A stretch of 64,000 nt of DNA, taken from contig JAHHHN010000003.1 of the NCBI GenBank assembly GCA_019359325.1, positions 124,001-188,000 of the forward strand, read 5' to 3'. Positions within the stretch are counted from its first letter, which is position 1. The number at the start of each line of letters is the position of its first letter. A program made the translations under genes and the position numbers. Positions 19,220-57,673 of the stretch are shown one piece after another. The notes beneath the pieces were generated by a model. That model saw only the letters and a list, made by a program, of their open reading frames with translations, did no database searches and was not told where the DNA came from. The DNA comes from Mojavia pulchra JT2-VF2 (GTDB taxonomy: Bacteria > Cyanobacteriota > Cyanobacteriia > Cyanobacteriales > Nostocaceae).

Positions 19220-20878
19220 ATGGCAAAGCCAATTGAATTTAATTTATTTGCACCCTACAACAAAGGAGCAGTATTAATTGGTTCTTTTTCCGACTGGAAA
19301 GAAATTCCTATGGAAAAAGGTGATGATGGTTATTTTCGTACTTCTGTTGAATTAGAAGATGGGGAATATCAATATAAATTCCGTGTGCAATCAAACTCAT
19401 GGTTTTTAGAACCAGAACAGTGGGTTGATGTCACAGATCCTTATGCAACTGATATTGACGAATTTGGCGGTAAAGATAATGGTATTGTTCGGATTAAAGA
19501 TGGCGAAAGGATTATCGATACATACGTTTGGCAACATGATGATAAACCTCTACCTGCTGACCACGAGTTAATCATTTATGAATTGCATGTTGGAGACTTC
19601 TCTGGTGGCGAAGATGATCCTTATGCACGAGGCAAATATAAACACGTTATTGAAAAACTAGATTATTTATGTGAACTGGGAATCAACGCTATTGAGTTGA
19701 TGCCAGTTAAAGAATATCCAGGTGATTATAGCTGGGGTTACAATCCCCGCCATTTTTTTGCACCTGAATCCAGTTATGGTTCGACAGCTGGGTTAAAAAA
19801 CCTCATTGATGAGTGTCATGCTAGAGGCATTCGCGTCATTATGGACGGTATTTATAATCACTCAGAAGCTTCTAGCCCATTAACACAAATCGACCACGAT
19901 TATTGGTATCATCACGAGCCTCGTGACCCTGATAATAGTTGGGGGCCTGAGTTCAATTATGAACACTATGACGAAAATTTAGACACATATCCGGCACGAA
20001 AATTTGTCGGTGATACCGTAAGATTTTGGGTTGAAGAATATCACTTAGATGGTATTCGCTATGATGCAGCACGGCAGATTGCCAATTACGATTTCATGCA
20101 CTGGATTGTTCAAGAAGCGAAAAAAGCTGCTGGTTCTAAACCTTTTTACAATATTGCAGAACACATACCTGAAACTACCAGCATTACCAATATCGATGGC
20201 CCAATGGATGGTTGCTGGCATGACAGTTTCCGTTATATAATTACAGAACACATTTGTGGTGATACTTTTGATTTAGAAAACCTCAAAGATGTAATTGACT
20301 GTAAACGTCAAGGCTTCATGGGTGCAACCAACGTCGTAAATTACCTCACCAACCACGACCATGATCGTCTTATGGTGGAACTAGGTAATCGTAATATTTT
20401 TGATGAAGAAGCCTTTAAACGCGTTAAGTTAGGAACAGCGATTCTAGTAACATCTGTTGGCGTACCTTTGATTTGGATGGGTGAAGAATTTGGTGAATAC
20501 AAACCCAAACAACCCGAATCAGCCAAAATTGATTGGACATTACTAGGTAATGGCTTAAATTCTAGTTTGTTTGAATACTATAAAGGCTTGGTTAATTTGC
20601 GTAAAACTAGTCATGCACTCTACACAGAGAATATCGATTTTATCCACGAAAATCCAGAAGCAAAAGTCCTAGCCTACAGCCGTTGGAATGATGGTGGTTC
20701 TCGTGTAGTTGTTGTAGCAAATTTCTCAGAAAACTTCTTAGCTGAGTATCATGTTCCTAATTTTCCCTGTAGTGGCACATGGCACGAGTGGACAGGTAAT
20801 TATGATGTCGAAGCTGGTGATGATGGCATCATAACTGATATAGGGCCCTACGAAGCCAAAGTGTTTGTTTGGCAATAA
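19220..20878 (+). CDS. GH13 alpha-amylase-family glycosidase with N-terminal CBM48-like domain (copy 1)
   Basis: A 552-residue cytoplasmic enzyme with no signal peptide. Residues 5-100 form an isoamylase-N/CBM48-like starch-binding domain (FNLFAPYNKGAVLIGSFSDW). The (beta/alpha)8 GH13 domain follows with all four regions: MDGIYNH (about 208-214), DGIRYDAARQ (nucleophile Asp282), NIAEH (acid/base Glu314) and TNHDHDR (His379-Asp380). The order resembles branching enzyme or trehalohydrolase relatives, but the protein is shorter than GlgB, so it probably trims or transfers alpha-glucan such as glycogen. A close paralogue lies at 26372-28042. A strong terminator follows the stop codon. Confidence 0.88.
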   Translation: MAKPIEFNLFAPYNKGAVLIGSFSDWKEIPMEKGDDGYFRTSVELEDGEYQYKFRVQSNSWFLEPEQWVDVTDPYATDIDEFGGKDNGIVRIKDGERIIDTYVWQHDDKPLPADHELIIYELHVGDFSGGEDDPYARGKYKHVIEKLDYLCELGINAIELMPVKEYPGDYSWGYNPRHFFAPESSYGSTAGLKNLIDECHARGIRVIMDGIYNHSEASSPLTQIDHDYWYHHEPRDPDNSWGPEFNYEHYDENLDTYPARKFVGDTVRFWVEEYHLDGIRYDAARQIANYDFMHWIVQEAKKAAGSKPFYNIAEHIPETTSITNIDGPMDGCWHDSFRYIITEHICGDTFDLENLKDVIDCKRQGFMGATNVVNYLTNHDHDRLMVELGNRNIFDEEAFKRVKLGTAILVTSVGVPLIWMGEEFGEYKPKQPESAKIDWTLLGNGLNSSLFEYYKGLVNLRKTSHALYTENIDFIHENPEAKVLAYSRWNDGGSRVVVVANFSENFLAEYHVPNFPCSGTWHEWTGNYDVEAGDDGIITDIGPYEAKVFVWQ

Positions 20879-26371: not shown

Positions 26372-28042
26372 ATGGCAAAGTTAATTGAATTTAAATTGTT
26401 TGCTCCTCGTAACAAAGGAGCTGCCTTAATCGGGTCATTTTCCGAATGGCAAGAAATCCCAATGGAAAAAGGAGAAGACGGTTATTTTCGCACCCAAACA
26501 GAACTAGAGGACGGTATTTATCAATATAAATTTCGTGTTCAGAGTAAAAGTCCTAATTTTGCACCTGATGAATGGGTAGAAGTCATCGACCCTTATGCAA
26601 CAGACGTTGATGAACAAAAAAAAGTCGGTGTATTGCAGATTAAAAATGGTAAGCGAATCGTTGATAGTTATATTTGGCAGCATGACGATACGCCATTACC
26701 AGAAAATAAAGAATTAATAATATATGAAATGCACGTTGCTGATTTTACTGGCGGCGAGGTTGATAGTGAGAAACGAGGAAAATATTTAGATGCTATTGAA
26801 AAGTTAGATTACCTACGAGAATTAGGCATTAATGCAATTGAATTAATGCCAGTGAATGAGTATCCTGGAGATTATAGCTGGGGCTACAAAATACGTCACT
26901 TCTTCGCTACAGAATCTAGCTATGGTTCAACAGCAGATTTAAAGCGATTTATTGATGAGTGCCATAGTAGAGGCATTCGGGTTTTCATTGATGGAATTTA
27001 TAACCATACTGATGAAGAGTGCCCGTTAATGCTAATTGATAGAAATTACTGGTACTACGAACACATGCATTATCCCGAAGACCCAGAAAATTACTGGGGG
27101 CCAGAGTTGAACTACGATAACTATGACGAAGAATTAGACGTTAAACCTGCTTGGAAATATATCGGGGATGTAGTGCGCTTTTGGGTGCAAGAGTATCACA
27201 TTGACGGAATCCGCTATGATGCAGTGCGCCAATTAGCTAACTTTGAATTTATGGACTGGCTTGCCCAACAAGCAAAAAACAATAGTGTCCGCAAGCCGTT
27301 TTACAATATTGCCGAACACATTCCTGACACCAGCAAAGTCACAGCACCAGAAGGGCCAATGGATGCTTGCTGGCATGAAAGTTTTCACTACTTTATAGTT
27401 CCACATATTTGCGGTGAAAAATTTGACTTAGAAAATCTCAAGCAGGTCTTAGAACCCAGACGGCAGGGTTATAAAACTGCTACAAATGCGATAAATTATT
27501 TGGCAACACACGATCGCGAACGTTTATTTAGAGAATTAGGCGAATCGGGTATCTTTGATGAAGCAGCATTTACACGAGCCAAATTAGCCGCTGTGCTATT
27601 GATGACAGCGATGGGTGTACCAATGCTGTGGATGGGAGAAGAATTTGGTGAACATAAGCGCAAAAGCCAAAGCGTTACTCAACCAAAGAAAATTGCTTGG
27701 CCGTTGTTAGAAAAAACCGAAAACCACGATTTATTTGAGTATTACAAAAAACTCATTGCCCTCCGTACAAAGAACCTAGCTTTGCAAAGTGATTATATAG
27801 ACTTTTTCCACGAAGATGTAGAGGCAAGAATTTTAGCATATGCCCGTTGGGATGGGCAAGATTCTCAAGTCGTAGTTGTAGTAAATTTTTCTGATGAAAA
27901 TTTAACTCAATATCATCTTCCCAACTTCCCCATTGCTGAACATTGGCAAGATTGGTTCGCCAACTATCAAGTAGAAACTGGGGATGATGGTATGGTTACT
28001 GACCTACAACCCTACACAGCCAAAATATTTGTTTCCCAATAG
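26372..28042 (+). CDS. GH13 alpha-amylase-family glycosidase with N-terminal CBM48-like domain (copy 2)
   Basis: A 556-residue paralogue of the enzyme at 19220, alignable nearly end to end. The CBM48-like part (FKLFAPRNKGAALIGSFSEW) and the four GH13 regions are intact: FIDGIYNH, DGIRYDAVRQ (Asp283), NIAEH (Glu315) and ATHDRER (His380-Asp381). The differences are clustered: region IV reads ATHDRER instead of TNHDHDR, the last third has an insert (HKRKSQSVTQPKK) after the EEFGE motif, and the region after the CBM is shorter. This points to divergence in substrate or product size. Expected role: cytoplasmic alpha-glucan metabolism. rpsO follows 93 bases downstream in the same direction. Confidence 0.88.
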   Translation: MAKLIEFKLFAPRNKGAALIGSFSEWQEIPMEKGEDGYFRTQTELEDGIYQYKFRVQSKSPNFAPDEWVEVIDPYATDVDEQKKVGVLQIKNGKRIVDSYIWQHDDTPLPENKELIIYEMHVADFTGGEVDSEKRGKYLDAIEKLDYLRELGINAIELMPVNEYPGDYSWGYKIRHFFATESSYGSTADLKRFIDECHSRGIRVFIDGIYNHTDEECPLMLIDRNYWYYEHMHYPEDPENYWGPELNYDNYDEELDVKPAWKYIGDVVRFWVQEYHIDGIRYDAVRQLANFEFMDWLAQQAKNNSVRKPFYNIAEHIPDTSKVTAPEGPMDACWHESFHYFIVPHICGEKFDLENLKQVLEPRRQGYKTATNAINYLATHDRERLFRELGESGIFDEAAFTRAKLAAVLLMTAMGVPMLWMGEEFGEHKRKSQSVTQPKKIAWPLLEKTENHDLFEYYKKLIALRTKNLALQSDYIDFFHEDVEARILAYARWDGQDSQVVVVVNFSDENLTQYHLPNFPIAEHWQDWFANYQVETGDDGMVTDLQPYTAKIFVSQ

Positions 28043-30266: not shown

Positions 30267-30559
30267 GATTAATCGGCGTTGCATAAATGCAAAGACCAAG
30301 GCTAAAGATTTCTTCTTTGCGCCTACCCTTCGGGTGAATCCTACGGATACGCTACGCGAGCGGCAGTTGCTTCAAGTCGCTTAACCCTTTCGGCAGTCGC
30401 TCATGGGGAGCCACTGCGTTGCGCGGGTTTCCCGCGTTGTAGCAAGTGGCGTGGAAACCCCCTGCGTACCCGTCGCTGTCTCACCAACGCACTGCCTCAC
30501 CACTCCGTGTCTATGCGCGAAACAAAATTCATCCCATAAATCAGCAACGCCGATTAATC
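30267..30559. repeat. MITE-like element with 16-bp perfect terminal inverted repeats, long form
   Basis: GATTAATCGGCGTTGC (30267-30282) is exactly complementary to 30544-30559. The outer 50 or so bases on each side match the short element at 7665-7769 in reverse orientation. The middle (30324-30513) is a different, GC-rich repeat also found elsewhere in the window. No transposase is encoded. Confidence 0.7.
30324..30513. repeat. GC-rich palindromic repeat (CCCTTCGGGTGAATCC family), inserted copy
   Basis: About 190 bases made of small palindromes (CCCTTCGGG, GGATTC/GAATCC, GCGGGTTTCCCGC, GGGGTTTCC). Near-identical copy at 57051-57260 (opposite strand), shorter copies at 37379-37510 and 48663-48790. 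Here it interrupts the GGCGTTGC element. Confidence 0.7.
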
Positions 30560-31468: not shown

Positions 31469-33913
31469 ATGTCAAGCAAAAAAGTTCACGTAGAAAATAA
31501 TACTAACGGTCATGTTGTGTCGCCGAAGCCAAGTGAAGCCAAGCTATCGGATATGGCTAAATCACAGCCTTCAGGCACATCACCGCTGAATTTATCACCT
31601 TTCAAGAAAAATGTACAAACGACAGAAGTTTTTAAAGATGCGCCTGATATAGTTTGCCTATCTCATTTGCGTTGGAATTTTGTCTATCAAAGACCGCAAC
31701 ATATTCTCAGCCGTTGTGCCCAAGGAAGACGGGTTTTCTTTATCGAAGAGCCAATTTTTAGCCAAGAACCGTTGGGGCGGTTGGATGTTAGCGAAGATAA
31801 CAGTGGGGTTGTGGTTGTTGTGCCACACCTACCCCAAGGTCTGAGTGAGGAAGCCGTAAACGCCGATTTACAAGTACTGATTGATGGTTTGTTTGCAGAG
31901 TATAACCTCCGCAACTACATTTTTTGGTACTACACACCAATGGCGATCGCCTTTACACGCCACTTGCAACCCCAAGCGGTAATATACGATTGCATGGATG
32001 AGTTGTCTGCATTCAAAGGAGCTTCACCGACTTTAAAAAACTACGAAGCTGAACTATTCCGCCGTGCAGACTTAGTATTTACTGGGGGACAAAGCCTTTA
32101 CGAAAGTAAAGTCAATCAACATCCTAATGTCTATGCTTTTCCTAGCAGTGTAGATGTACCTCATTTTGCACAGGCAAGAACTACTACAGAAGAACCAGCA
32201 GATCAGGCAAATATTCCCCATCCGCGCCTTGGCTTCTTTGGCGTGATTGATGAGCGGATGGATATCGAACTGCTACGCGGTATCGCCGATGCGCGTCCCG
32301 ATTGGCATCTGGTAATCATTGGGCCAGTTGTGAAAATTGATCCCGCAACACTGCCACAGCGTGAGAATATTCATTATCTCGGTAGTAAAGATTATAAAGA
32401 GTTACCTACATACTTGGCTGGCTGGGACTTAGCAATGCTGCCGTTTGCGCGCAATGAGTCAACCCGCTTTATTAGCCCAACAAAGACTCCAGAGTATCTG
32501 GCCGCAGGTAAGCCTGTGGTGTCTACCACAATTCGGGATGTAGTACGTCCCTACGGAGACTCGAAGCTGGTACGAATTGCAGACACAGTCTCTGATTTCG
32601 TTACCGCTATAGAACAGGCAATGCAAGAAGATACTCCTGCATCGGGATGGTTAAGCCGAGTAGATAGCTTTTTAGAGCAGATATCTTGGGATCGTACCTG
32701 GGCATCAATGATGAAGCTCATCGACTCTGCTATTGCTGCCCGCGACAATGAAGAAAAAAATAACTCTAAGGGCGTAGTCTCTGGAAAACAAGCTCCAAAC
32801 GTTATTACCAGAGACTTTGTTTTTGATTACTTAATTGTAGGTGCGGGATTCTCTGGCAGCGTCATCGCTGAACGCTTGGCCAGCCAGTCAGGGAAGAAAG
32901 TGCTGGTAGTAGACAAGCGCAATCACATCGGCGGCAACGCTTACGATCATTATGACGATCATGGCGTCTTGGTACACAAGTACGGCCCTCACATCTTTCA
33001 CACCAACTCCCGCGAAGTCTTTGAATACCTCTCGCGCTTTACGCAATGGCGGTCTTACGAGCATCGCGTCCTTGCTAGCGTAGATGGACAGCTTGTGCCT
33101 ATTCCAATCAACCTCGATACGATCAACAAGCTGTATGGGATGAATCTCAATTCATTTGAGGTAGAGGAATTTTACAAGTCACTTGCTGAACCAGTAGAAA
33201 ACATCCGCACCTCAGAAGATGTGGTAGTCAGCAAAGTCGGTCGAGTATTGTACGAAAAGTTTTTCCGAAATTATACCCGCAAGCAATGGGGACTCGACCC
33301 ATCAGAACTTGATAAATCAGTGATTGCCCGGATTCCTACCCGTACCAACCGCGACGATCGCTATTTCACAGACACATACCAAGCAATGCCACTGCATGGT
33401 TTTACCAGGATGTTCGAGAATATGTTAAATCATCCGAATATCAAGGTAATGCTCAACACTGATTACCGGGAAATTCAAAAAGCGATACCTTGCCGCGAGA
33501 TGGTTTACAGCGGGCCCGTTGATGAGTACTTTGATTATCGTTATGGCAAACTGCCGTATCGCTCGCTTGATTTCAAACATGAAACACACAACACCCAAGT
33601 ATTTCAATCTGCACCAGTAATCAACTATCCCAACGAGCAATTGTATACTCGTGTGACAGAGTTTAAATACCTGACTGGTCAGGAACACGCCAAAACTAGC
33701 ATCGTATACGAGTTTCCCAAGGGAGAGGGAGACCCCTATTATCCTGTACCACGCCCTGAGAATAACGAAATGTACAAGAAATACAAGGCGTTGGCTGATA
33801 CCGCAACAGGAATATACTTTGTTGGGCGACTGGCAACCTACAAGTATTACAACATGGATCAATGTGTCGCTCAGGCTCTTTCTGTGTATAAACAAATCGG
33901 AGTTAAGGCTTGA
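31469..33913 (+). CDS. Fusion: GT4-like glycosyltransferase + UDP-galactopyranose mutase
   Basis: An 814-residue two-enzyme protein. After a polar leader (1-55), residues about 58-430 form a glycosyltransferase of the GT-B type (CLSHLRWNFVYQRPQHILSR, YDCMDELSAFKGA, IGPVVKIDPATLP, ISPTKTPEYLAAGKPVVST). From about residue 453 a complete UDP-galactopyranose mutase follows: FAD-binding DYLIVGAGFSGSVIAERL, VVDKRNHIGGNAYD, GPHIFHTNSREVFEYL, KQWGLDPSEL and the C-terminal YFVGRLATYKYYNMDQ. The mutase would turn UDP-galactopyranose into UDP-galactofuranose and the attached transferase could use it. There is no signal peptide. It heads a set with the GH1-RmlD fusion and galE. Confidence 0.9.
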   Translation: MSSKKVHVENNTNGHVVSPKPSEAKLSDMAKSQPSGTSPLNLSPFKKNVQTTEVFKDAPDIVCLSHLRWNFVYQRPQHILSRCAQGRRVFFIEEPIFSQEPLGRLDVSEDNSGVVVVVPHLPQGLSEEAVNADLQVLIDGLFAEYNLRNYIFWYYTPMAIAFTRHLQPQAVIYDCMDELSAFKGASPTLKNYEAELFRRADLVFTGGQSLYESKVNQHPNVYAFPSSVDVPHFAQARTTTEEPADQANIPHPRLGFFGVIDERMDIELLRGIADARPDWHLVIIGPVVKIDPATLPQRENIHYLGSKDYKELPTYLAGWDLAMLPFARNESTRFISPTKTPEYLAAGKPVVSTTIRDVVRPYGDSKLVRIADTVSDFVTAIEQAMQEDTPASGWLSRVDSFLEQISWDRTWASMMKLIDSAIAARDNEEKNNSKGVVSGKQAPNVITRDFVFDYLIVGAGFSGSVIAERLASQSGKKVLVVDKRNHIGGNAYDHYDDHGVLVHKYGPHIFHTNSREVFEYLSRFTQWRSYEHRVLASVDGQLVPIPINLDTINKLYGMNLNSFEVEEFYKSLAEPVENIRTSEDVVVSKVGRVLYEKFFRNYTRKQWGLDPSELDKSVIARIPTRTNRDDRYFTDTYQAMPLHGFTRMFENMLNHPNIKVMLNTDYREIQKAIPCREMVYSGPVDEYFDYRYGKLPYRSLDFKHETHNTQVFQSAPVINYPNEQLYTRVTEFKYLTGQEHAKTSIVYEFPKGEGDPYYPVPRPENNEMYKKYKALADTATGIYFVGRLATYKYYNMDQCVAQALSVYKQIGVKA

Positions 33914-33954
33914 GGATACTTGGTGTCTTACCTTGAAACAATCAAGTGGGGTAA

Positions 33955-33975
33955 GGGCACAACATTGTTGTGCCC
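33955..33975. repeat. GGGCACAACA palindrome
   Basis: GGGCACAACA (33955-33964) and TGTTGTGCCC (33966-33975) around one base, 41 bases after the mutase fusion stop. Same family as 3548-3569 and 57619-57639. It lies inside the sugar gene set and may attenuate transcription into the next gene. An AACCGCAAAGAACGC-type dispersed sequence follows at about 34040. Confidence 0.6.
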
Positions 33976-34104
33976 CTACGAAAGACCTATATTCTCAACA
34001 ATTGCAAACGGCTATAAGTGCCTTTGTGGTTAAGAAAACGAACCGCAAAGAACGCAAAGAGCGCGAAGGAAGAATAACAGAATATAAGCTTGAGCTATAA
34101 CGTT

Positions 34105-36327
34105 ATGACTGTTGATTTCAACTCAACGCTTGACACTCAGCAATCACAGCTTCCCCTGGAAGTGTGGGCTGGTCTGGAGTGTACGGTTAATCGTGTGGGT
34201 GACAAGTATTTTGACCAGTTGGAACGTAACGGTCATGCAACGCGCTTGGATGACCTGGAATTATTCGCACAACTGGGGATACAGGCAATTCGCTACCCTG
34301 TGCTTTGGGAGAGAATTGCACCCAATGGGTTGGAGAATGCTGACTGGTCGTGGCCGGATGAGCGGCTAGGACGATTACGCGAACTTGGTATCCGTCCAAT
34401 TCTGGGATTAGTGCATCATGGTAGCGGCCCAGATCACACCAGTTTGGTAGATCCGGATTTTCCAGAGAAACTAGCTGAGTTTGCCCGCGCAGTGGCAGAA
34501 CGCTATCCTTGGGTAACATATTACACACCTGTAAACGAACCACTAACAACGGCCCGATTCAGCGGGTTGTACGGTCACTGGTATCCTCACGGTCGGGATG
34601 ATTTAACTTTTGGCCGTGCTTTGTTAGGGGAGTGTCGCGCGATCGCCCTTTCGATGAAGGCAATTAGGCAGGTTAATCCCAATGCCCAACTTGTGCAAAC
34701 TGATGATTTGGGTAAGGTTTACAGTACACCCAAGCTGGCTTATCAAGCAGAGTTGGAAAATGAGCGTCGCTGGTTGACCTTTGATTTGCTCTGCGGTCGC
34801 ATAGATTCAAATCATCCCATGTGGGAGTACCTGCAAATATGCGGGTTTAGCGAGGCAGAACTTGGCTGGTTTAGGGAAAATCCCTGCCCCCCAAACATTA
34901 TGGGTATTAACCACTACATCACAAGCGATCGCTTTTTAGATGAGAATCTAGAAAATTACCCAGCTTGGACGCATGGTGGCAACGGCAAGGATAAATATGC
35001 AGATGTAGAGGCGGTGCGAGTTTGTCTTGAGGGTGCAGCAGGGCCACGCACATTACTTAAAGAAGCATGGGAACGTTACAAACTGCCACTAGCGATCACC
35101 GAAGTTCACCTCCACTGCACCCGTGAGGAGCAGTTACGCTGGCTTTATGAGGTGTGGAATGCAGCACAGTCAGTGCGATCGCAGGGTGTAGATGTTCGTG
35201 CTGTGACCGTTTGGGCGCTTCTAGGTACTTATGATTGGAATAGCTTAGTAACTCGCTGGGTTGGCAACTACGAATCAGGCGTGTTTGATTTGCGATCGCC
35301 AACTCCACGACCAACAGCAATTGCCAAAATGGTGCGCGACTTAGCAACTGGGAACCAACCAGACCATCCTTTACTGGAAATACCAGGGTGGTGGCATCGG
35401 CAAGAGCGTCTATTGTACCCAGCTGTGAGTTGTGGTGAGATAGTCAGTGGTGGAAACGCTAAAATTTCCAATATTTCTGTATCCTCCGCGCCTTTAGCGA
35501 TCGTTGGAGCCAGAGGAACTCTAGGCAGAGCTTTTGCGCGTTTGTGCGAGGTGCGTGGTATTAAATACCGCTTATTGTCTCGTCAGGAAATGGACATTAC
35601 CAATCAGGACTCGGTGGATGCGGTTCTGGCTGAGTTGAAGCCCTGGGCAGTTGTAAATGCTGCTGGCTACGTGCGAGTAGATGATGCAGAGCATGAACCT
35701 GATGTTTGCCTGCTTAATAATACAGAGGGAGCAGCAAATTTAGCAACTGCTTGTGCGCGGTATAACGTGCCACTGCTGACTTTTTCATCAGACTTGGTAT
35801 TTGATGGTACTGTAACTAACCCCTATAGAGAAACTGATACTGTTGCCCCCCTGAATGTGTATGGATGCAGCAAAGCTTTAGCAGAAAAGCTGGTATTGAA
35901 GGTTAATCCGGCATCGCTAGTGATTCGCACTAGTGCATTTTTCGGCCCGTGGGATGATTACAACTTCGTAACTATAGCTCTACGTCAGCTAAGTGCTGGA
36001 AATACCTTTACCGCTGCTGATGATTCTATTGTTTCACCTACCTATGTACCCGATCTTGTCCATGCCAGCCTTGATTTGTTAATTGACGGCGAGTCTGGGT
36101 TATGGCATTTGGCAAATCAAGGTGCGATCGCCTGGGCTGATTTAGCACGGTTAGCAGCGAAAACCGCAGGCGTGAGCGTTAGCAATTTAATTGCCCGCCC
36201 CACACGAGAACTTGGTTTTATTGCCCCCCGCCCAGCTTATAGCGTTTTGGGTAGCGATCGCGGTGAATTGATGCCGTCCCTTGACAATGCAATGTCCCGC
36301 TATTTCGATGAGCTAGAAAAATTGTAA
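34105..36327 (+). CDS. Fusion: GH1-type glycosidase + RmlD-like dTDP-4-dehydrorhamnose reductase
   Basis: A 740-residue protein from ATG 34105. Residues about 10-425 resemble family 1 glycosidases (beta-glucosidase barrel): acid/base Glu145 in TPVNEPLTT and likely nucleophile Glu333 in LAITEVHL. Residues about 463-740 are an SDR of the RmlD/sugar-nucleotide reductase class (IVGARGTLGRAF, DITNQDSV, VVNAAGYVRVDDAEHEP, FSSDLVFDG, YGCSKALAEK with the YxxxK pair). RmlD makes dTDP-L-rhamnose; the partner glycosidase is unexpected. The next gene, galE, starts 20 bases on. The acid/base and nucleophile are present, but the nucleophile context ITEVH differs from the common ITENG, so specificity is unclear. 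Confidence 0.85.
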   Translation: MTVDFNSTLDTQQSQLPLEVWAGLECTVNRVGDKYFDQLERNGHATRLDDLELFAQLGIQAIRYPVLWERIAPNGLENADWSWPDERLGRLRELGIRPILGLVHHGSGPDHTSLVDPDFPEKLAEFARAVAERYPWVTYYTPVNEPLTTARFSGLYGHWYPHGRDDLTFGRALLGECRAIALSMKAIRQVNPNAQLVQTDDLGKVYSTPKLAYQAELENERRWLTFDLLCGRIDSNHPMWEYLQICGFSEAELGWFRENPCPPNIMGINHYITSDRFLDENLENYPAWTHGGNGKDKYADVEAVRVCLEGAAGPRTLLKEAWERYKLPLAITEVHLHCTREEQLRWLYEVWNAAQSVRSQGVDVRAVTVWALLGTYDWNSLVTRWVGNYESGVFDLRSPTPRPTAIAKMVRDLATGNQPDHPLLEIPGWWHRQERLLYPAVSCGEIVSGGNAKISNISVSSAPLAIVGARGTLGRAFARLCEVRGIKYRLLSRQEMDITNQDSVDAVLAELKPWAVVNAAGYVRVDDAEHEPDVCLLNNTEGAANLATACARYNVPLLTFSSDLVFDGTVTNPYRETDTVAPLNVYGCSKALAEKLVLKVNPASLVIRTSAFFGPWDDYNFVTIALRQLSAGNTFTAADDSIVSPTYVPDLVHASLDLLIDGESGLWHLANQGAIAWADLARLAAKTAGVSVSNLIARPTRELGFIAPRPAYSVLGSDRGELMPSLDNAMSRYFDELEKL

Positions 36328-36347
36328 GTTGGGAGTTTTCGCAAATT

Positions 36348-37334
36348 ATGACGACTATTTTAGTCACAGGTGGAGCCGGATATATTGGCTCTCATGCAGT
36401 ATTAGCCCTGAAGCAAGCAGGTTATGAGGTCGTTGTTCTCGATAATCTTTCAAATGGGCATCGAGAAATTGTAGAAGAAGTTTTGCAGGTGAAATTGATT
36501 GTTGGTGATACGAGCGATCGCCAACTTCTCGATCAAATATTTACAACCCATGATATAGCGGCAGTGATGCATTTTGCTGCCTACATTGCCGTGGGTGAAT
36601 CTGTTACTGACCCAGGCAAATATTATCGTAATAACGTCATTGGCACGCTGACATTGTTAGAAGCAATGCTGGCTGCATCTATTAACAAGTTCATTTTTTC
36701 TTCTACTTGCGCTCTTTATGGCGTACCTAAATTTGTGCCACTGACTGAAGGACATCCGCAAGATCCCATCAGCCCTTACGCAACTAGCAAATGGATGGTA
36801 GAGCGAATATTAGCGGATTTTGATCCAGCCTACAATCTCAAATCTGTGAGATTTCGCTATTTTAACGCCGCAGGTGCTGATCCCAATGGGTTATTAGGTG
36901 AAGACCACGAACCTGAAACTCATATCATCCCACTGGTGCTATTTGCAGCCTTAGGTAAGCGAGAAACTATTGCTATTTTTGGCACTGATTACCCTACCAG
37001 AGATGGTACTTGCATTCGGGATTATATTCACGTTGCTGATTTAGCACAAGCTCATATTTTGGGTTTGGAATATTTATTAAAAGGGGGAGAAAGCGAAGTA
37101 TTTAATTTAGGCAATGGTAGCGGTTTTTCAGTCAGAGAAGTCATAGAAACAGCCCAAAAAGTAACAGGAAAAGAACTCAAAATTGTAGAGCGCGATCGCC
37201 GTCCTGGTGACCCCCCAATCTTAGTTGGTAGCAGCGACAAAGCACAGCAAATTTTGGGATGGAATCCACAGTATCCAAATCTGAACGAAATCATTTCCCA
37301 CGCTTGGCAATGGCATCAAAAACGGCATAAGTAA
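36348..37334 (+). CDS. galE: UDP-glucose 4-epimerase
   Basis: A 328-residue SDR of the GalE family: NAD-binding TGGAGYIGSHAV at the N-terminus, the serine in FSSTCALYG, catalytic Tyr/Lys in YATSKWMVE, and the substrate-binding RYFNAAGADP and GTDYPTRDGTCIRDYIHV (split). It interconverts UDP-glucose and UDP-galactose in the cytoplasm. It follows the GH1-RmlD fusion by 20 bases, so the three genes probably form one operon in which GalE supplies UDP-galactose for the mutase. Confidence 0.95.
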   Translation: MTTILVTGGAGYIGSHAVLALKQAGYEVVVLDNLSNGHREIVEEVLQVKLIVGDTSDRQLLDQIFTTHDIAAVMHFAAYIAVGESVTDPGKYYRNNVIGTLTLLEAMLAASINKFIFSSTCALYGVPKFVPLTEGHPQDPISPYATSKWMVERILADFDPAYNLKSVRFRYFNAAGADPNGLLGEDHEPETHIIPLVLFAALGKRETIAIFGTDYPTRDGTCIRDYIHVADLAQAHILGLEYLLKGGESEVFNLGNGSGFSVREVIETAQKVTGKELKIVERDRRPGDPPILVGSSDKAQQILGWNPQYPNLNEIISHAWQWHQKRHK

Positions 37335-38286
37335 TAAACAGTGCTGAGTTTTGAGTTCTGAGTGCTATCTCCCCTGCACCCCTTCGGGTGAATCCTACGG
37401 ATACGCTACGCGAACAGCAGTTGCTCATGGGGAACCACTGCGCCCTTGCGGGTTTCCCGCGTTGTAGCAAGTGGCGTGGAAACCCCCTGCGTACCCGTCA
37501 CTGCTTCACCTGCTTCACCTGCTTCCCAATCCCTAGCCCCTGTTTCATGCATGGTGATGAAATTTTTTTCATTGAGGTGGAACAAAAATTTTTGGCATCC
37601 TCTTAACGATGGATGCTAAACAAGGTCTAGAAGCAATACAAATTATTGCACCGCGTACCGCTATCTCAATTTATTACAACGATTACACTATTTTTTAAGT
37701 CACTACTAGAAGATTTTATGCGTGGAATTGAGGCAGCAGGTTAAATACCTCAGCCACTGTGACAGTTAGAGATTCCAAATTTCATAATCTACCATTTTGA
37801 TAATTGCACCAAAAAGCAGGCAGATAGCCAATCTATAGCCCCAATCGCTGAATGGGCATCGCTAGCTAATTGGTTTTATCTTATCTTTAGGAATACTTAC
37901 AAGTAGAACCAAAGATAGAAAACAGACAATAATTATATCGATACAATAAAGATACTAAATCAGTAATTAGTAAAATTAATTTAAATTGAAAAAAATAAGT
38001 TAGTCATTATTTTCTATTTAGTTTTTGTATTTTTTGTCTGATAAAGAAGCTGAAAAAGAGTAGATTCATTCCCATCATGCCCAAATAATTGCATTAGTAA
38101 CTTTTTGGTCATTCATCCCTTGTTACCGCTTTGGTTACAAGAACATCATGATTATATGTATATACTTTGGTGACAGCTTCCAACCGTTGATAAACAGAGA
38201 GTATTACAATATTGCGATCGCTAAATAATTTTGCTTGATATTGAGTCAGGGAAAATCAAAATTTCAAATCCAAAATCTCAAAACCA
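37335..38286. other. Long intergenic region after galE
   Basis: About 950 bases. The first part carries the GC-rich repeat at 37379-37510 and short direct repeats (CTGCTTCACCTGCTTCACC near 37501). The remainder is AT-rich with no RNA gene or convincing reading frame; a run of GATAATTGC-type sequence and the final 100 bases should include the promoter of the glycosyltransferase gene. Confidence 0.45.
37379..37510. repeat. GC-rich palindromic repeat (CCCTTCGGGTGAATCC family), short copy
   Basis: About 130 bases sharing CCCTTCGGGTGAATCCTACG, GGGTTTCCCGCGTTGTAGC and GGAAACCCCCTGCGTACCCG in order with the copies at 30324, 48663 and 57051. It lacks the AGTCGCTTAACC segment found in the long copies. 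Confidence 0.7.
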
Positions 38287-39564
38287 ATGGCTCACTTTGG
38301 CGTTATTTGCCCACCCTATCCTGGACATCTGAATCCCCAAGCTGCATTGGGGCGAGAACTCCAATCACGTGGTCATCGTGTCACCTTCCTACAAATTCCC
38401 GATTTGGAATCAAAGGTGCAATCGGAGGGGATAAATTTTTATCCTATTGGCGAAGCGATTTATCAACCTGGCTCAATGGCTGAAGCCTTTGCACAATTAG
38501 GAAAGTTAAGTCATTTGGAGGCGTTGCGTTACTCCCTCGATTTTTGCCAGCAAATGGTGGAAATTATTTGTCAAGATGCACCCCAAGCGATCGCAGCGAT
38601 AGGAATTGATATTTTGTTGGTAGATCAACTCGAACCCGTTGGCGAAACGGTGGCGGAATATCTCAATCTACCTTTTATCTGCATTTCTTGCGCTCAGGTA
38701 ATTCACCGTCGAACTGATGTTCCTCCTTTTTTCACACCCTGGAGTTATCAGAATACGCAGTGGGCAAAAATCCGTAATCAGACAGCGTATTACCTTTTAG
38801 ATCGCAGTTGCCAACCAATTTTAGGAGCGATTAATAACTACCGCAAACAGTGGAAGTTGTCCAAATACCGCCACATCTATGCTTCCAACGCACGACTCGC
38901 CCATATTAGTCAACAACCTGCGGCGTTTGAGTTTCCCATTCCTAACCTGCCATCGCACCTCCATTATGTAGGGCCGTTGCGAAATGCTTCACCACAATTG
39001 GTTGATTTCCCCTACGAGAAATTAACCGGACAGCCTATGGTTTATGCGTCATTAGGAAGCGTCCAGAACACTAAACACGACGTATTTCGTTGCATTGCTG
39101 CTGCTTGCGAAGATTTGGATGTACAACTGGTAATTGCTCATGGAGGTGGGATGAATGCAGAAACAGTGCGATCGCTACCTGGAAGTCCCTTAGTAGTCGA
39201 GTATGCTCCCCAACCGGAGATACTAGCAAAAGCTAGTCTCACAATTACCCATGGGGGAATGAATACAACATTGGATTCCCTGAGCTACGGCGTACCTGTG
39301 ATAGCAATTCCTATCACCTTTGAACAACCTGGAACTGGCGCACGCATTCGCTCAACCGGAGTAGGAGAAGTGTTGTCTTTGCCCAAACTCAGCATTTCCA
39401 CATTGCGATCGGCAATTGAGCGGGTAATAACAGAAAATTTCTACACAAAGAATGCCCAGAAAATTCAGCAGTCAATTCAACAAGCCGGCGGCGTCAAACA
39501 AGCAGCAGATATTATTGAGCAGGTTACTCAATCCCAACGTTATCAAGTTGTAGAGGCATTATAA
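38287..39564 (+). CDS. GT1-family (UGT/MGT-type) glycosyltransferase
   Basis: A 425-residue GT-B enzyme. The N-terminal acceptor domain starts MAHFGVICPPYPGHLNPQAA with the catalytic-type histidine in PGHLNP; the C-terminal donor domain has VYASLGSVQN, VEYAPQPEILAKASLTITHG and GGMNTTLDSLSYGVPVIAIP, the nucleotide-sugar signature of UGT/MGT glycosyltransferases. Acceptors in this class include lipids, carotenoids and macrolides; a carotenoid glycoside (CrtX-like) role is possible but nothing in the sequence proves it. No signal peptide. hflX begins 90 bases downstream, same strand. Confidence 0.85.
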   Translation: MAHFGVICPPYPGHLNPQAALGRELQSRGHRVTFLQIPDLESKVQSEGINFYPIGEAIYQPGSMAEAFAQLGKLSHLEALRYSLDFCQQMVEIICQDAPQAIAAIGIDILLVDQLEPVGETVAEYLNLPFICISCAQVIHRRTDVPPFFTPWSYQNTQWAKIRNQTAYYLLDRSCQPILGAINNYRKQWKLSKYRHIYASNARLAHISQQPAAFEFPIPNLPSHLHYVGPLRNASPQLVDFPYEKLTGQPMVYASLGSVQNTKHDVFRCIAAACEDLDVQLVIAHGGGMNAETVRSLPGSPLVVEYAPQPEILAKASLTITHGGMNTTLDSLSYGVPVIAIPITFEQPGTGARIRSTGVGEVLSLPKLSISTLRSAIERVITENFYTKNAQKIQQSIQQAGGVKQAADIIEQVTQSQRYQVVEAL

Positions 39565-39654: not shown

Positions 39655-41340
39655 ATGCAAAATATTTATGGCAATGTTCAAGGCATAAAATCGAGTCAAA
39701 TCAAATTATTACAACGACTGTATGAGCAACGGCAACCAGGGGATAGATTAACCACACCTGAATTTGCCCAAACATTAGCTACAATTACCACAGAAATTCA
39801 TCACCCGATTTGTTGTTATATCAATCGGCGTGGGCAAGTAATCCGAATTGCTGTTGGAACTCCTTTTCAAACACAAATTCCACCGGAAGAATTACCCCGC
39901 CACAGTGCGGAACGATTGAGTGGAATTCACTGCATTGCTACTCAATTCAAATCAGAACAACCTGATGAAGGTGCGTTGATTGCAATGCTACGTCAACGCT
40001 TAGATGCTCTTGTAGTGTTAAGCGTGGCTGATGGCAAAATTAAAGCAGCAACATTAGCGCATCTTGTCCCTGATTTAGAAACTCCTTGGGAAATTTCACC
40101 TCCCCTTAATTTGGATGACTTAACCGAACAAGAATTTGATGAATTAGTTGCGGAATGGGAGCGAGAAATTTCTGAAGCTGGAGAAGGTATATTCCTCAAC
40201 CAAGATATTGTATCTGACCAAGACAAAGTATTACTGGTGGGAGTGCAGACAGATGATATCTCTCCTCAACGGTTTGAAGATGGATTGCAAGAGCTGGTGC
40301 GTTTGGTAGAAAGTGCTGGAGGAATTGTATTAGATACAGTACGACAAAAACGTAGTCGCCCCCATCCACAAACAGTTATAGGTCAAGGAAAAGCGGAAGA
40401 AATTACTCTTTTGGCACAAAAGTTAGGAGCTAATTTAATTGTTTTTGACCGAGATATTTCGCCATCCCAAGCCCGCAATTTAGAAGCTGAAATTGGAATG
40501 CGGGTTGTAGACAGAACAGAAGTAATTTTAGATATTTTTGCTCAACGCGCTCGTTCTGGTGCAGGTAAATTACAAGTAGAACTGGCACAACTCGAATATA
40601 TGCTACCTCGATTGCGCGGGCGTGGTCGGGAAATGTCCAGATTAGGGGCTGGGATTGGTACGCGTGGGCCGGGTGAAACTAGACTGGAGACAGAACGGCG
40701 AGTAATTCAGCGGCGAATTGCCCAGCTACAGCAAGAAGTGGACGAATTACAAGCCCACCGTGCCCGAATTAGGCAACAACGACAACAACAAGAAATTCCT
40801 GTTGTGGCATTAGTTGGTTATACAAATGCTGGTAAATCAACTTTGCTAAATGTGTTAACTAATGCTGAGGTTTACACAGCAAATCAACTATTTGCTACCC
40901 TCGATCCAACAACGCGCAAGTTGGTAATTACAGAATCTGAAACTCAAGAACGAAGGTCGATTTTACTAACAGATACTGTAGGGTTTATTCACGAACTCCC
41001 GCCACCACTAATGGATGCTTTCCGCGCCACATTAGAGGAAGTAATTGAGGCCGATGTTTTGCTTCATATCGTGGATTTGTCCCACCCAGCATGGGAAAGT
41101 CATATTGCCAGCGTTCAGCAAATCCTCGAAGAAATGCCTGAGATTCCAGAAACAAGTTTGATTGCTTTTAATAAAATTGACCGCGTAGATAGTGAGGTTT
41201 TGGCGAAAGCACAGCAAAATTATTCTGAGGCTCTATTTATTTCAGCTACTGAACGTTTAGGTTTAGAAACTTTAAAACAGCGATTGTTGCAACTGATTTT
41301 TGAACCTGTGAATGCCATTGCAGCCACACAAAACTCATAA
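39655..41340 (+). CDS. hflX: Ribosome-associated GTPase HflX
   Basis: A 561-residue TRAFAC GTPase. An extra N-terminal region of about 175 residues precedes the HflX core, a feature I associate with the longer cyanobacterial forms. The core has the HflX domain (VRQKRSRPHPQTVIGQGKAEEI split, LDIFAQRARSGAGKLQVELAQL split, GTRGPGETRLETERR) and a GTPase domain with G1 GYTNAGKSTLL (about 387), G3 DTVGF, and G4 NKID. HflX splits stalled or hibernating ribosomes under stress. All nucleotide motifs are intact. Confidence 0.95.
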   Translation: MQNIYGNVQGIKSSQIKLLQRLYEQRQPGDRLTTPEFAQTLATITTEIHHPICCYINRRGQVIRIAVGTPFQTQIPPEELPRHSAERLSGIHCIATQFKSEQPDEGALIAMLRQRLDALVVLSVADGKIKAATLAHLVPDLETPWEISPPLNLDDLTEQEFDELVAEWEREISEAGEGIFLNQDIVSDQDKVLLVGVQTDDISPQRFEDGLQELVRLVESAGGIVLDTVRQKRSRPHPQTVIGQGKAEEITLLAQKLGANLIVFDRDISPSQARNLEAEIGMRVVDRTEVILDIFAQRARSGAGKLQVELAQLEYMLPRLRGRGREMSRLGAGIGTRGPGETRLETERRVIQRRIAQLQQEVDELQAHRARIRQQRQQQEIPVVALVGYTNAGKSTLLNVLTNAEVYTANQLFATLDPTTRKLVITESETQERRSILLTDTVGFIHELPPPLMDAFRATLEEVIEADVLLHIVDLSHPAWESHIASVQQILEEMPEIPETSLIAFNKIDRVDSEVLAKAQQNYSEALFISATERLGLETLKQRLLQLIFEPVNAIAATQNS

Positions 41341-41415
41341 GCACAAAAAGGGGATGGAAATTAATTCTCTAATAACCAATACCCAATCCCCTCGAAACTA
41401 AACTTGAATTTTTCT

Positions 41416-42699
41416 ATGAACTCAAAATACGATTTTGATTACTTTCAAGGAAATTCTTTATCTGATCTGTTTGCTCAAGACGCTACAGATGGGCGTTATG
41501 CATTGTTACCAAATTATCCTGCTACTGGCAGTTGGGCAGCTTACCCTAATGTAAAAAAATACTATATTCAAGATGGTAGTAGTGAAGCCACCAAAACCTC
41601 GTTTGATAAGATTTGCCAGAAGGAACCTTGGAAAAATCTAGCTGTGCTAGGTGACGCTATTGTGGGAATTGCGATTATTTCACCCCAAAAGCCATTAATT
41701 GATTACTGGCAGGAGCATTTTGGCTTTAGCTACACCAATATGGAGAAGATGGACTGCTCAGTTTATCTTGATGAGTTAAGCCAAGGCGATCGCTTTGACA
41801 AAATTATCACTCTATTTCCCTTCGATCATCTGCGTTATGAAAAACACGCAGTAGCCCCCGATACCCACTACCGCTTACTCAGCAAAGTGACGCTAGCTGA
41901 ACTTGGGGCGCAATGTCCGAAATACGATAGTTACAATCTTCACGCCGTCAGTCTTGAAGATATCCAGTTACCAGAGCAATTTCCCTACTTAATCAAAACG
42001 TCCCACGGACTCTCAGGTGAAGGTACTTATATTATCAAAAGCACCAGCGATTTAAACTATTGCTTGAAAGAGGTGAGGAAATATCTCGATATTAAATTGC
42101 TCGATCACATTATTGTCTCTGACTTTGTCAACAATGTCGTGCAGAATTACTGCGTACAGTTCTATGTCAACAAAGTAGGAGATATAACGCTCATCGGCGC
42201 TACAAGTCAACTCGTCACCTCAGAAGGCAACTATTTAGGGGGAGTAATTAACTACCGCCAAACCGACATGAGCCGATTCGGTGAGATGATTGCCGCCATT
42301 GGTGAGTATGCTCATAAGCATGGTTATTTTGGCTTTGTTGGCTTTGACGTACTAGAAGACAAAGACGGACAGCTTTATGTAATTGATGTTAATTTCCGAA
42401 TAAATGGCTCGACTCCACTCTGCTTGCAGCGCCATACCCTACTAGGCATGGGAAAAGAGGTAGCTAAGTATTCCAGTGACTATCGTATGGCTGGGGCATT
42501 GGACTCTGTTTTAATGACCTTGAAACCAGAACTGGAGAGCAAAGATTTTATCATTCTGTCGGCTCTAGAGAAGGTCAAATACGGAAAAATCTACACAGAA
42601 ATTTACGGGATTGTAGCTGGAGAGACGATCGCGCAAATGCAGGACAATGAGCAGAACCTAAAAAATAAGGGATTACATTGGCTTGGTGAGTCAGTGTAA
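41416..42699 (+). CDS. ATP-grasp carboxylate-amine ligase-like protein, unknown product
   Basis: A 427-residue protein from ATG 41416 (a TTG at 41404 is upstream). The N-terminal third (about 1-180) is not recognised; residues about 185-345 carry ATP-grasp features: PYLIKTSHGLSGEGTYIIKS (flexible loop), the metal/ATP-binding VGFDVLEDKDGQLYVIDVN followed by FRINGST. The C-terminal end (EIYGIVAGETIAQMQ) is conserved in a family of bacterial and fungal ATP-grasp proteins, as far as I recall. Such enzymes join a carboxylate to an amine through an acyl phosphate. An isoaspartyl-peptidase gene follows 165 bases downstream on the same strand, so a peptide or isopeptide product is a reasonable guess. 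Confidence 0.7.
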   Translation: MNSKYDFDYFQGNSLSDLFAQDATDGRYALLPNYPATGSWAAYPNVKKYYIQDGSSEATKTSFDKICQKEPWKNLAVLGDAIVGIAIISPQKPLIDYWQEHFGFSYTNMEKMDCSVYLDELSQGDRFDKIITLFPFDHLRYEKHAVAPDTHYRLLSKVTLAELGAQCPKYDSYNLHAVSLEDIQLPEQFPYLIKTSHGLSGEGTYIIKSTSDLNYCLKEVRKYLDIKLLDHIIVSDFVNNVVQNYCVQFYVNKVGDITLIGATSQLVTSEGNYLGGVINYRQTDMSRFGEMIAAIGEYAHKHGYFGFVGFDVLEDKDGQLYVIDVNFRINGSTPLCLQRHTLLGMGKEVAKYSSDYRMAGALDSVLMTLKPELESKDFIILSALEKVKYGKIYTEIYGIVAGETIAQMQDNEQNLKNKGLHWLGESV

Positions 42700-42787
42700 T
42701 CATCCCCTAAATTTCCTGCTTTCAAGAAATTGCACCCATATAACAATCTTGTATGGAATGCGAGTGATGCAATCAATAGATTGCAAA

Positions 42788-42811
42788 AGGCCTGTTGACT
42801 TCAACAAGCCT
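42788..42811 (+). terminator. Hairpin between ATP-grasp and peptidase genes
   Basis: AGGCCTGTTGA (42788-42798) pairs with TCAACAAGCCT (42801-42811) with one mismatch and a two-base loop. AT-rich DNA follows. It would end most ATP-grasp transcripts before the peptidase gene, or act as a partial attenuator. Confidence 0.45.
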
Positions 42812-42864
42812 AATAATTCCAATTTTGACGAATACACCTATCTATAAAAGATAAAAGGAAAGTT

Positions 42865-43761
42865 ATGACACTAGCTATTGTTGTTCACGGTGGGGCAAAA
42901 ACCATCACAGACAATAAGGTTGAAGCCAATAATGCAGGTTGCAAAGCAGCTGTAGAGGCTGGTTGGGCAGTCCTAACAAGCGGGGGTACTGCCGCAGAAG
43001 CTGTTGAGGCAGCCATTCGGGTTCTAGAAGCTGACCGAACATTTAATGCTAGTCTGGGTGCGGTTCTTAATGACGATGGGGAGGTAGAGCTAGATGCAGC
43101 AATTATGGAGGGCGATTCCTTTGGTTGGGGATCGGTAGCAGCAGTTCAGGGCGTCCGTCATCCCATCTCGGTAGCAAGAAAGATTATGGATACAAAACCC
43201 ATGCTACTAGTGGCGCGGAGTGCAGAACGCTTTGCAGCTGACAATGGAGTTGAGATGTGTGCAAAAGAAGACTTAATTACTGGGGAACAACGAAAAGAGT
43301 GGGAGGAAGAACAAGAAGTAATCGATCGCCCCAATACCGTTGGTTGTGTAGCTTTAGATGCTAACGGCACTCTAGCAGCTGGCACTTCTACTGGGGGGAC
43401 TACAAATCAGTTAGCTGGTCGCGTCGGCGATACCGCGCTCGTTGGCTCTGGCTTGTATGCTGATAATAAACTTGGTGCTTGCTCAACAACAGGTGATGGC
43501 GAGTCGATTATCCCGGTGGTTCTGGCTAAAACTGCGATTGATTTGCTAGATGGAGATAGACATCCAGACGAAGCAGCGCAAATGGCAATTGAGATTTTGA
43601 AATCTAAAGTTGAGGGAGAAGCTGGGTGCATCCTTTTGGATGGTCAGGGAAGAGTTGGCTGGGCGCATAACTCGTCGGATATGGCTTGTGGTTATATGAC
43701 CACATCCCAAGACAAGCCAGCTGTGTTTACTAAGAAAAAGACTCTTGCTGAAAAAATTTAA
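42865..43761 (+). CDS. Isoaspartyl peptidase / plant-type L-asparaginase (Ntn hydrolase)
   Basis: A 298-residue precursor of the family that self-cleaves before a threonine. The nucleophile is Thr158 in RPNTVGCVALD, with the supporting TSTGGTTNQLAGRVGD (about 178-193) and GDTALVGSGLYAD, and the N-terminal VVHGGA. Enzymes of this type hydrolyse beta-aspartyl dipeptides, including beta-Asp-Arg from cyanophycin, and often asparagine. It is slightly shorter than typical members (about 310-330). With CphA2 and CphB in the same window it may complete cyanophycin breakdown; an alternative is processing of a product of the ATP-grasp gene upstream. A good ribosome site (AAAGGAAAG) precedes the ATG. 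Confidence 0.9.
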   Translation: MTLAIVVHGGAKTITDNKVEANNAGCKAAVEAGWAVLTSGGTAAEAVEAAIRVLEADRTFNASLGAVLNDDGEVELDAAIMEGDSFGWGSVAAVQGVRHPISVARKIMDTKPMLLVARSAERFAADNGVEMCAKEDLITGEQRKEWEEEQEVIDRPNTVGCVALDANGTLAAGTSTGGTTNQLAGRVGDTALVGSGLYADNKLGACSTTGDGESIIPVVLAKTAIDLLDGDRHPDEAAQMAIEILKSKVEGEAGCILLDGQGRVGWAHNSSDMACGYMTTSQDKPAVFTKKKTLAEKI

Positions 43762-57554: not shown

Positions 57555-57618
57555 GGACTGTTTTTTCCTGGTAAGCTTTAGCTCAGGCACATCATCAATT
57601 AACCAACAACATTGCAAA

Positions 57619-57639
57619 GGGCACAGCAGTGCTGTGCCC
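57619..57639. repeat. GGGCACAGCA palindrome
   Basis: GGGCACAGCA and TGCTGTGCCC around one base, followed by CCTAC. Third member of the family at 3548 and 33955. It lies 35 bases past the 3' end of the radical SAM gene (minus strand) and may act as its terminator. Confidence 0.6.
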
Positions 57640-57673
57640 CTACATTCTGGGAAATTTATTTTTTACTATTCCC

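Follow-up and report, generated by a model that had tools for sequence, protein, structure and literature searches.

Three adjacent genes on the forward strand of a 64,000-nucleotide stretch of the Mojavia pulchra JT2-VF2 genome (contig JAHHHN010000003.1, positions 124,001 to 188,000; the window) encode a glycosyltransferase (GT) fused to a UDP-galactopyranose mutase (UGM; Glf), a family 1 glycoside hydrolase (GH1)-like domain fused to an RmlD-like reductase, and the epimerase GalE. We propose, with moderate confidence, that this module is the synthetic arm of an intracellular cycle for galactofuranose (Galf) run by soluble enzymes, and that the product of the cycle is likely a Galf oligosaccharide of the type found in Nostoc. 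GalE would convert UDP-glucose to UDP-galactopyranose (UDP-Galp), the Glf half would convert this to UDP-Galf, and the fused GT-B half would transfer Galf to an acceptor, with its donor specificity suggested by the fusion. Galf would then be cleaved off again by a co-inherited GH2 glycosidase from the furanosidase group, which a GH43 enzyme joins in some genomes. The freed galactose would return to UDP-Gal through galactokinase and GalT, with GalE closing the recovery; this direction of the cycle is the one we infer. The likely products are beta-(1->6)-galactofuranosyl oligosaccharides with a 1,4-anhydrogalactitol end, probably serving as a drying- or stress-related solute. A soluble build-and-recycle cycle is the simplest account because the partner most strictly tied to the UDP-Galf maker is a furanosidase-type GH2, because the other partners recover galactose, and because the enzymes carry no signal peptides.

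Identity of the mutase fusion and galE

The three open reading frames (ORFs) described in a first-pass annotation made from the sequence alone were confirmed, with their positions, in the ORF listing. The first (31469..33913, 814 residues) joins a GT-B glycosyltransferase at residues ~58-430 to a UGM at residues ~451-810, with the mutase part lying at approximately 32822..33898 (residues 452-810). Profile search placed the GT group-1 domain PF13692 at residues 270-386. The mutase half scored 406 bits against TIGR00031 (equivalog cut-off 303.75), covering profile positions 2-376 of 378, and the structure of the D. radiodurans mutase (3hdq) aligned with it over 359 residues at 633-635 bits. These matches confirmed the fusion of a GT-B transferase to a full mutase, and they predict that the Glf half interconverts UDP-Galp and UDP-Galf. 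The GT half scored 87.5 bits against the teichuronic acid transferase TuaH (NF047676), below the equivalog cut-off of 550; no solved relative of this half was found by sequence, and the structure model of the fusion, with a predicted local distance difference test score (pLDDT) of 48, was too poor for fold comparison.

The galE gene (36348..37334) scored 459.3 bits against the GalE profile TIGR01179 (cut-off 262.3). As originally described, it starts 20 bases past the stop codon of the GH1-RmlD gene, and our spacing survey found it as the same-strand neighbour of GH1-RmlD in 30 loci. The gap between the GT-Glf and GH1-RmlD genes is ~176 bases, and a single transcript over both is therefore not to be taken as given.

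Co-inheritance with galactose-recovery genes and a GH2 glycosidase

The distribution of the module was surveyed in 149 genomes of the order to which the host belongs, sampled evenly by group. The GT+Glf pair, compiled by hand, was present in 33 of these; one further genome (G109) carried the GT alone, at a contig end. A GH2 glycosidase was found in 32 of the 33 GT+Glf genomes and in none of the other 116. The galT gene, counted at 75% identity or more, was present in 33/33 and 1/116, respectively, and galK, counted above its profile cut-off, in 32/33 and 5/116. Nine families hold both states, and in each of them GH2 and galT track GT+Glf. The outlier with galT (G065) retains galT, galK, galE and a broken RmlD-like fragment, the pattern that an eroding module would leave. 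Two genomes (G128 and G136) have Glf without the GT and carry neither galT nor GH2; galT and GH2 are therefore co-inherited with the module rather than with Glf as such.

Across ~80 loci the recurrent neighbours were galK, galT, galE, GH2, GH43, a PhyH-type oxygenase, an M24 family protein and a small cupin. In many loci galK, galT, GH2, GH43 and galE lie inside ~8 kb, and the linkage of GH2 with galT extends to Geomonas. The host genome has these partners on several contigs: contig 10 carries GH2 and galT, which share 22 bases, contig 32 carries galK, and contig 25 carries another GH2 gene. The three window genes are part of a gene set whose members are scattered and yet tightly co-inherited. 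The suggestion in the first-pass annotation that the glycosidase-reductase fusion trims or recycles a glycan holds to the extent that a recycling arm exists, but most of that arm lies outside the window. A small STAS-domain protein, possibly a regulator, is encoded between glf or GH1-RmlD and GH2 at L099:6026-6403, with kin in four other loci (L084, L086, L096 and L101).

The co-inherited GH2 is related to furanosidases

Against solved structures, the host GH2 sequence scored highest with 7XYR (329 bits), followed by 7SF2 (277 bits), which is uncharacterised, and 9J6N (252 bits), a beta-D-galactofuranosidase from Streptomyces. For the homologue at locus L065, the next relatives, which are glucuronidases and galactosidases, scored at most 92 bits, 7SF2 aside. 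The catalytic motifs NE and EFGG were kept in 29/29 module GH2s. A partner GH2 is encoded at L145:11626-13503. In a 2025 subdivision of GH2, 9J6M falls into GH2_18 and 7XYR into GH2_19, which constitute the furanose-active group III (PMC12243196), and the enzyme of Streptomyces sp. JHA19 is a Galf-specific beta-D-galactofuranosidase (PMC4560423). By kinship, the co-inherited GH2 is assigned to furanosidase group III (GH2_18/19), and it is predicted to hydrolyse beta-D-galactofuranosides. The core module enzymes, including GH2, have no signal-peptide or membrane-like segments, and to judge from this they look soluble.

Several points count against an intracellular Galf cycle. GH2 group III also has arabinofuranosidases, and 7XYR is without known activity. 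The Fisher p values for the co-occurrence of galT, GH2 and galK (4e-26 to 3e-32) ignore kinship, and the host galK, galT and GH2 genes are outside the 64-kb window, on other contigs. Deinococcus, Azospirillum and others carry the gene set as well and may use it for a different product, and ATP-binding cassette (ABC) or major facilitator superfamily (MFS) transporters near some loci would be compatible with an exported product. Finally, N. commune, the source of the oligosaccharides on which the proposed product is modelled, was not among the named loci.

Glycosidases with Leloir enzymes are a classical catabolic set, and the same genes could instead serve the scavenging of galactosides, by import and breakdown of galactose-rich polymers from plants, lichens or neighbours, with Glf and the GT diverting some galactose to the surface. 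MFS genes do adjoin some modules, and a UGM-containing cluster described in 2010 from N. punctiforme and Nostoc azollae was read as serving galactose and polysaccharide metabolism and was linked to plant mucilage (PMC2900214). We nevertheless think scavenging unlikely. A UGM-transferase fusion would be superfluous for catabolism, yet GT+Glf is the constant part of the module; the module glycosidases lack signal peptides; and the nearest relatives of the GH2 are furanosidases.

A second glf and the envelope reading

The first-pass annotation had placed the three genes in the synthesis of an envelope polysaccharide or exopolysaccharide, and had seen in the GT-Glf fusion a direct supply of UDP-Galf to a transferase. 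The latter is supported by the recurrence of GT and Glf in fused, split and overlapping forms. The envelope role, in which the GT would build a Galf surface glycan and the glycosidases would edit it, fared less well. Glf with a transferase is the usual layout of surface polysaccharide loci, and ABC exporter genes adjoin the module in Azospirillum and at L086. However, no GT2 polymerase, flippase or priming transferase is found next to the module in the window, and strict co-inheritance with galK and galT would be unexpected for an envelope locus.

In addition, the host genome has a second glf, 49% identical, ~170 kb away on the same contig as the module (G000:C19:325801-326904; L117:8778-9908). 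Next to it lie several transferases, one of them a GT2 protein whose N-terminal domain is that of GlfT2, and the cluster is likely an envelope-galactofuranan locus. It fits the envelope role better than the module does, the enzymes of which look soluble and are co-inherited with galK, galT and a furanosidase-type GH2. We therefore regard an envelope function of the module as doubtful. A third glf fragment (G000:C5:144923-145273; L003 and L122) is truncated, has in-frame stops and is apparently a pseudogene.

If an intracellular Galf cycle does operate, Galf in these bacteria would be used and recycled inside the cell instead of serving as a wall sugar, and the gene set would provide a genomic rule for predicting galactofuranosidases.

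The GH1-like/RmlD-like fusion protein

The second ORF of the module (34105..36327) encodes a GH1-like domain at residues ~15-430 and an RmlD-like short-chain dehydrogenase/reductase domain at residues ~462-740. A TTG at 34090 is a possible start, and the alternative ATG at 34105 is probably the correct one. The GH1 half is divergent, scoring 41.5 bits against PF00232 (cut-off 22.6), and the reductase half scored 205 bits against PF04321. Both catalytic glutamates reported previously, the acid/base Glu (TPVNEP) and the nucleophile Glu (ITE), align with GH1 structures and are invariant in 19 homologues. These profile matches and alignments confirmed the described GH1-RmlD fusion. The AlphaFold model of the protein was of fair quality (pLDDT 79), and its folds matched RmlD with a template modelling (TM) score of 0.92 by target and GH1 beta-glucosidases with ~0.7.

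The active sites of both halves are altered. In the -1 subsite of the GH1 half, HH replaces HW after strand 3 and Asp replaces Glu before the last Trp, and the Q20 position could not be aligned. In the reductase half, the YxxxK and nucleotide-binding motifs are retained. The Trp of the RTSW motif, which we take to be the active-site residue W153 of 1KBZ, is replaced in all of the homologues with a readable motif (68 of 71); the substitutes are Ala, Cys, Ser or Leu, with Ala or Cys in 66/71. Because of these replacements in the GH1 subsite and of the RTSW Trp, the protein is unlikely to be an ordinary beta-glucosidase or an ordinary RmlD.

The fusion was absent from 8 of the 33 module genomes. 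Seven of these eight carry, in the same neighbourhood or genome, a GH1-like relative without the reductase (373 residues, 23% identical, E 2e-11), and for this reason the GH1-like step seems to be needed and the reductase optional.

A role of the fusion protein in the supply of dTDP-L-rhamnose, as the first-pass annotation had it, and in the trimming of a glycan that contains rhamnose is highly improbable: the RmlD-like fold and the retained motifs speak for it, but the reductase half, at 202-205.5 bits, misses the RmlD equivalog cut-off of TIGR01214 (224.05), canonical rmlC (280 bits) and rmlD (344.7 bits against the same cut-off) lie side by side on contig 7 of the host genome, the RTSW Trp is replaced, and the module genomes without the fusion mostly carry the reductase-free protein. 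We rejected the fused domain as an RmlD rhamnose enzyme on the first three of these grounds.

The GH1-RmlD protein may instead act on the same Galf chemistry as the rest of the module, and it possibly forms the reduced anhydro end. A precedent for such chemistry is the pair of alpha-1,4-glucan lyase and 1,5-anhydrofructose reductase, in which a glycosidase-fold enzyme and an NADPH reductase together yield an anhydroalditol. That system acts on pyranoses and is unfused and of GH31 type, and offers an analogy with GH1-RmlD only. We tentatively suggest, as a speculative extension in which we place little confidence, that GH1-RmlD is a bifunctional maker of the 1,4-anhydrogalactitol end. In this scheme, the glycosidase-fold half would turn a galactofuranoside into a 1,4-anhydro-2-ulose by elimination across C1-C2, and the ulose would then be reduced by the NADPH reductase half. 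If this were true, a single polypeptide would hold a pathway for furanoses that parallels the anhydrofructose pathway, inside a full build-and-recycle cycle for a Galf solute. The module also provides a glycosidase-reductase fusion whose active sites are altered.

Distribution and evolution of the fusions

GT and Glf were fused in 35/42 named GTDB loci and in 14/32 sampled loci; otherwise the two genes were adjacent, and in Deinococcus the separate genes overlap. When the fused state was mapped on a Glf tree, a quick tree with some long branches, at least three changes fell on well-supported branches, with five changes in all. Because the label changes several times, the GT-Glf fusion appears to have arisen or been lost repeatedly. 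The GH1-RmlD fusion was found in at least seven phyla (Cyanobacteriota, Deinococcus, Pseudomonadota, Bacteroidota, Verrucomicrobiota, Planctomycetota and Geomonas), and in some Mesorhizobium and Ensifer the GH1-like part occurs without the reductase. Each of the two fusions is found again in dozens of independent assemblies, and frameshift errors as their source were rejected on this ground.

N. flagelliforme and other taxa of soil, rock and desert carry the module, with habitats read from organism names and the terrestrial bias an impression, and related parts are carried by Deinococcus, Sphingomonas and Azospirillum. If the proposed cycle is right, this distribution, which takes in many cyanobacteria of such habitats, would make a link to drying tolerance testable.

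Other features around the module

A 27-base hairpin repeat lies between the two fusion genes (33953..33979), with a second copy at 57617-57643; there were three matches, two of them on overlapping strands, with none expected by chance. Conserved promoters and terminators were looked for, and the counts were the same as in shuffled sequences. Copies of one interspersed repeat (ccttcgggtgaatcctacggatacgctacgcga...gtagcaagtggcgtggaaacccc) lie on either side of the module, at 30320-30470 and 37380-37490. A macrolide-type glycosyltransferase (MGT family, below cut-off) at 38287-39564 adjoins the module here and in two Nostoc loci, and six Nostoc loci (L034, L037-L040 and L043) have a gene for the UV-damage endonuclease UvdE downstream of the module. 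Past the module, the region 39655-43758 encodes HflX, an ATP-grasp protein and an isoaspartyl peptidase, which a PhyH oxygenase joins in other genomes, and forms a second conserved neighbourhood. A connection with mycosporines by way of the PhyH and ATP-grasp genes was considered as a possibility. The window also contains two similar GH13-type proteins (19220-20875 and 26372-28042), possibly glycogen- or trehalose-related.

Comparison with known systems

Canonical envelope UGM loci of the GlfT2 type share the mutase family with the module, but the module differs in that its transferase is GT-B and fused, and is accompanied by glycosidases and Leloir enzymes. The Streptomyces sp. JHA19 galactofuranosidase (GH2_18; PDB 9J6M/9J6N) resembles the module GH2s in its group and in the NE and EFGG motifs. 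It was found through activity in culture and acts on fungal galactomannan (PMC4560423), whereas the module GH2s are alike to it only at ~250 bits and lack a signal peptide.

The UGM-containing cluster of N. punctiforme and Nostoc azollae discussed above resembles the module in having a UGM gene and in having been read as galactose metabolism. It probably belongs to the same locus family, since N. punctiforme NIES-2108 is one of our loci (L070). In that account, as far as it is accessible, the cluster was thought to be exclusive to the two symbionts, and the fusions, the furanosidase kinship and the wide distribution do not appear (PMC2900214).

In Microcoleus vaginatus, unusual oligohexoses occur linked to a substance whose formula is that of a C7 sugar alcohol (PMC3826126). 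We found the module in this species (L052), but any relation of these oligohexoses to the proposed product would be conjectural. Nostoc commune contains beta-D-Galf-(1->6) oligosaccharides ending in 1,4-anhydrogalactitol, as cited from Wieneke et al. 2007 (ref. 48 in PMC3826126). No gene assignment for these oligosaccharides was found in the literature searched, in which a single paper cited their structure. N. commune belongs to the same family, Nostocaceae, as the host, and, going by the cited description, beta-Galf units and a reduced 1,4-anhydro end could be made by GalE, Glf, a transferase and a reductase. The oligosaccharides are known from chemistry, and the module from its gene content. 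We suggest that the module represents the best gene candidates for the N. commune Galf oligosaccharides; if so, genes would be given to compounds known only chemically.

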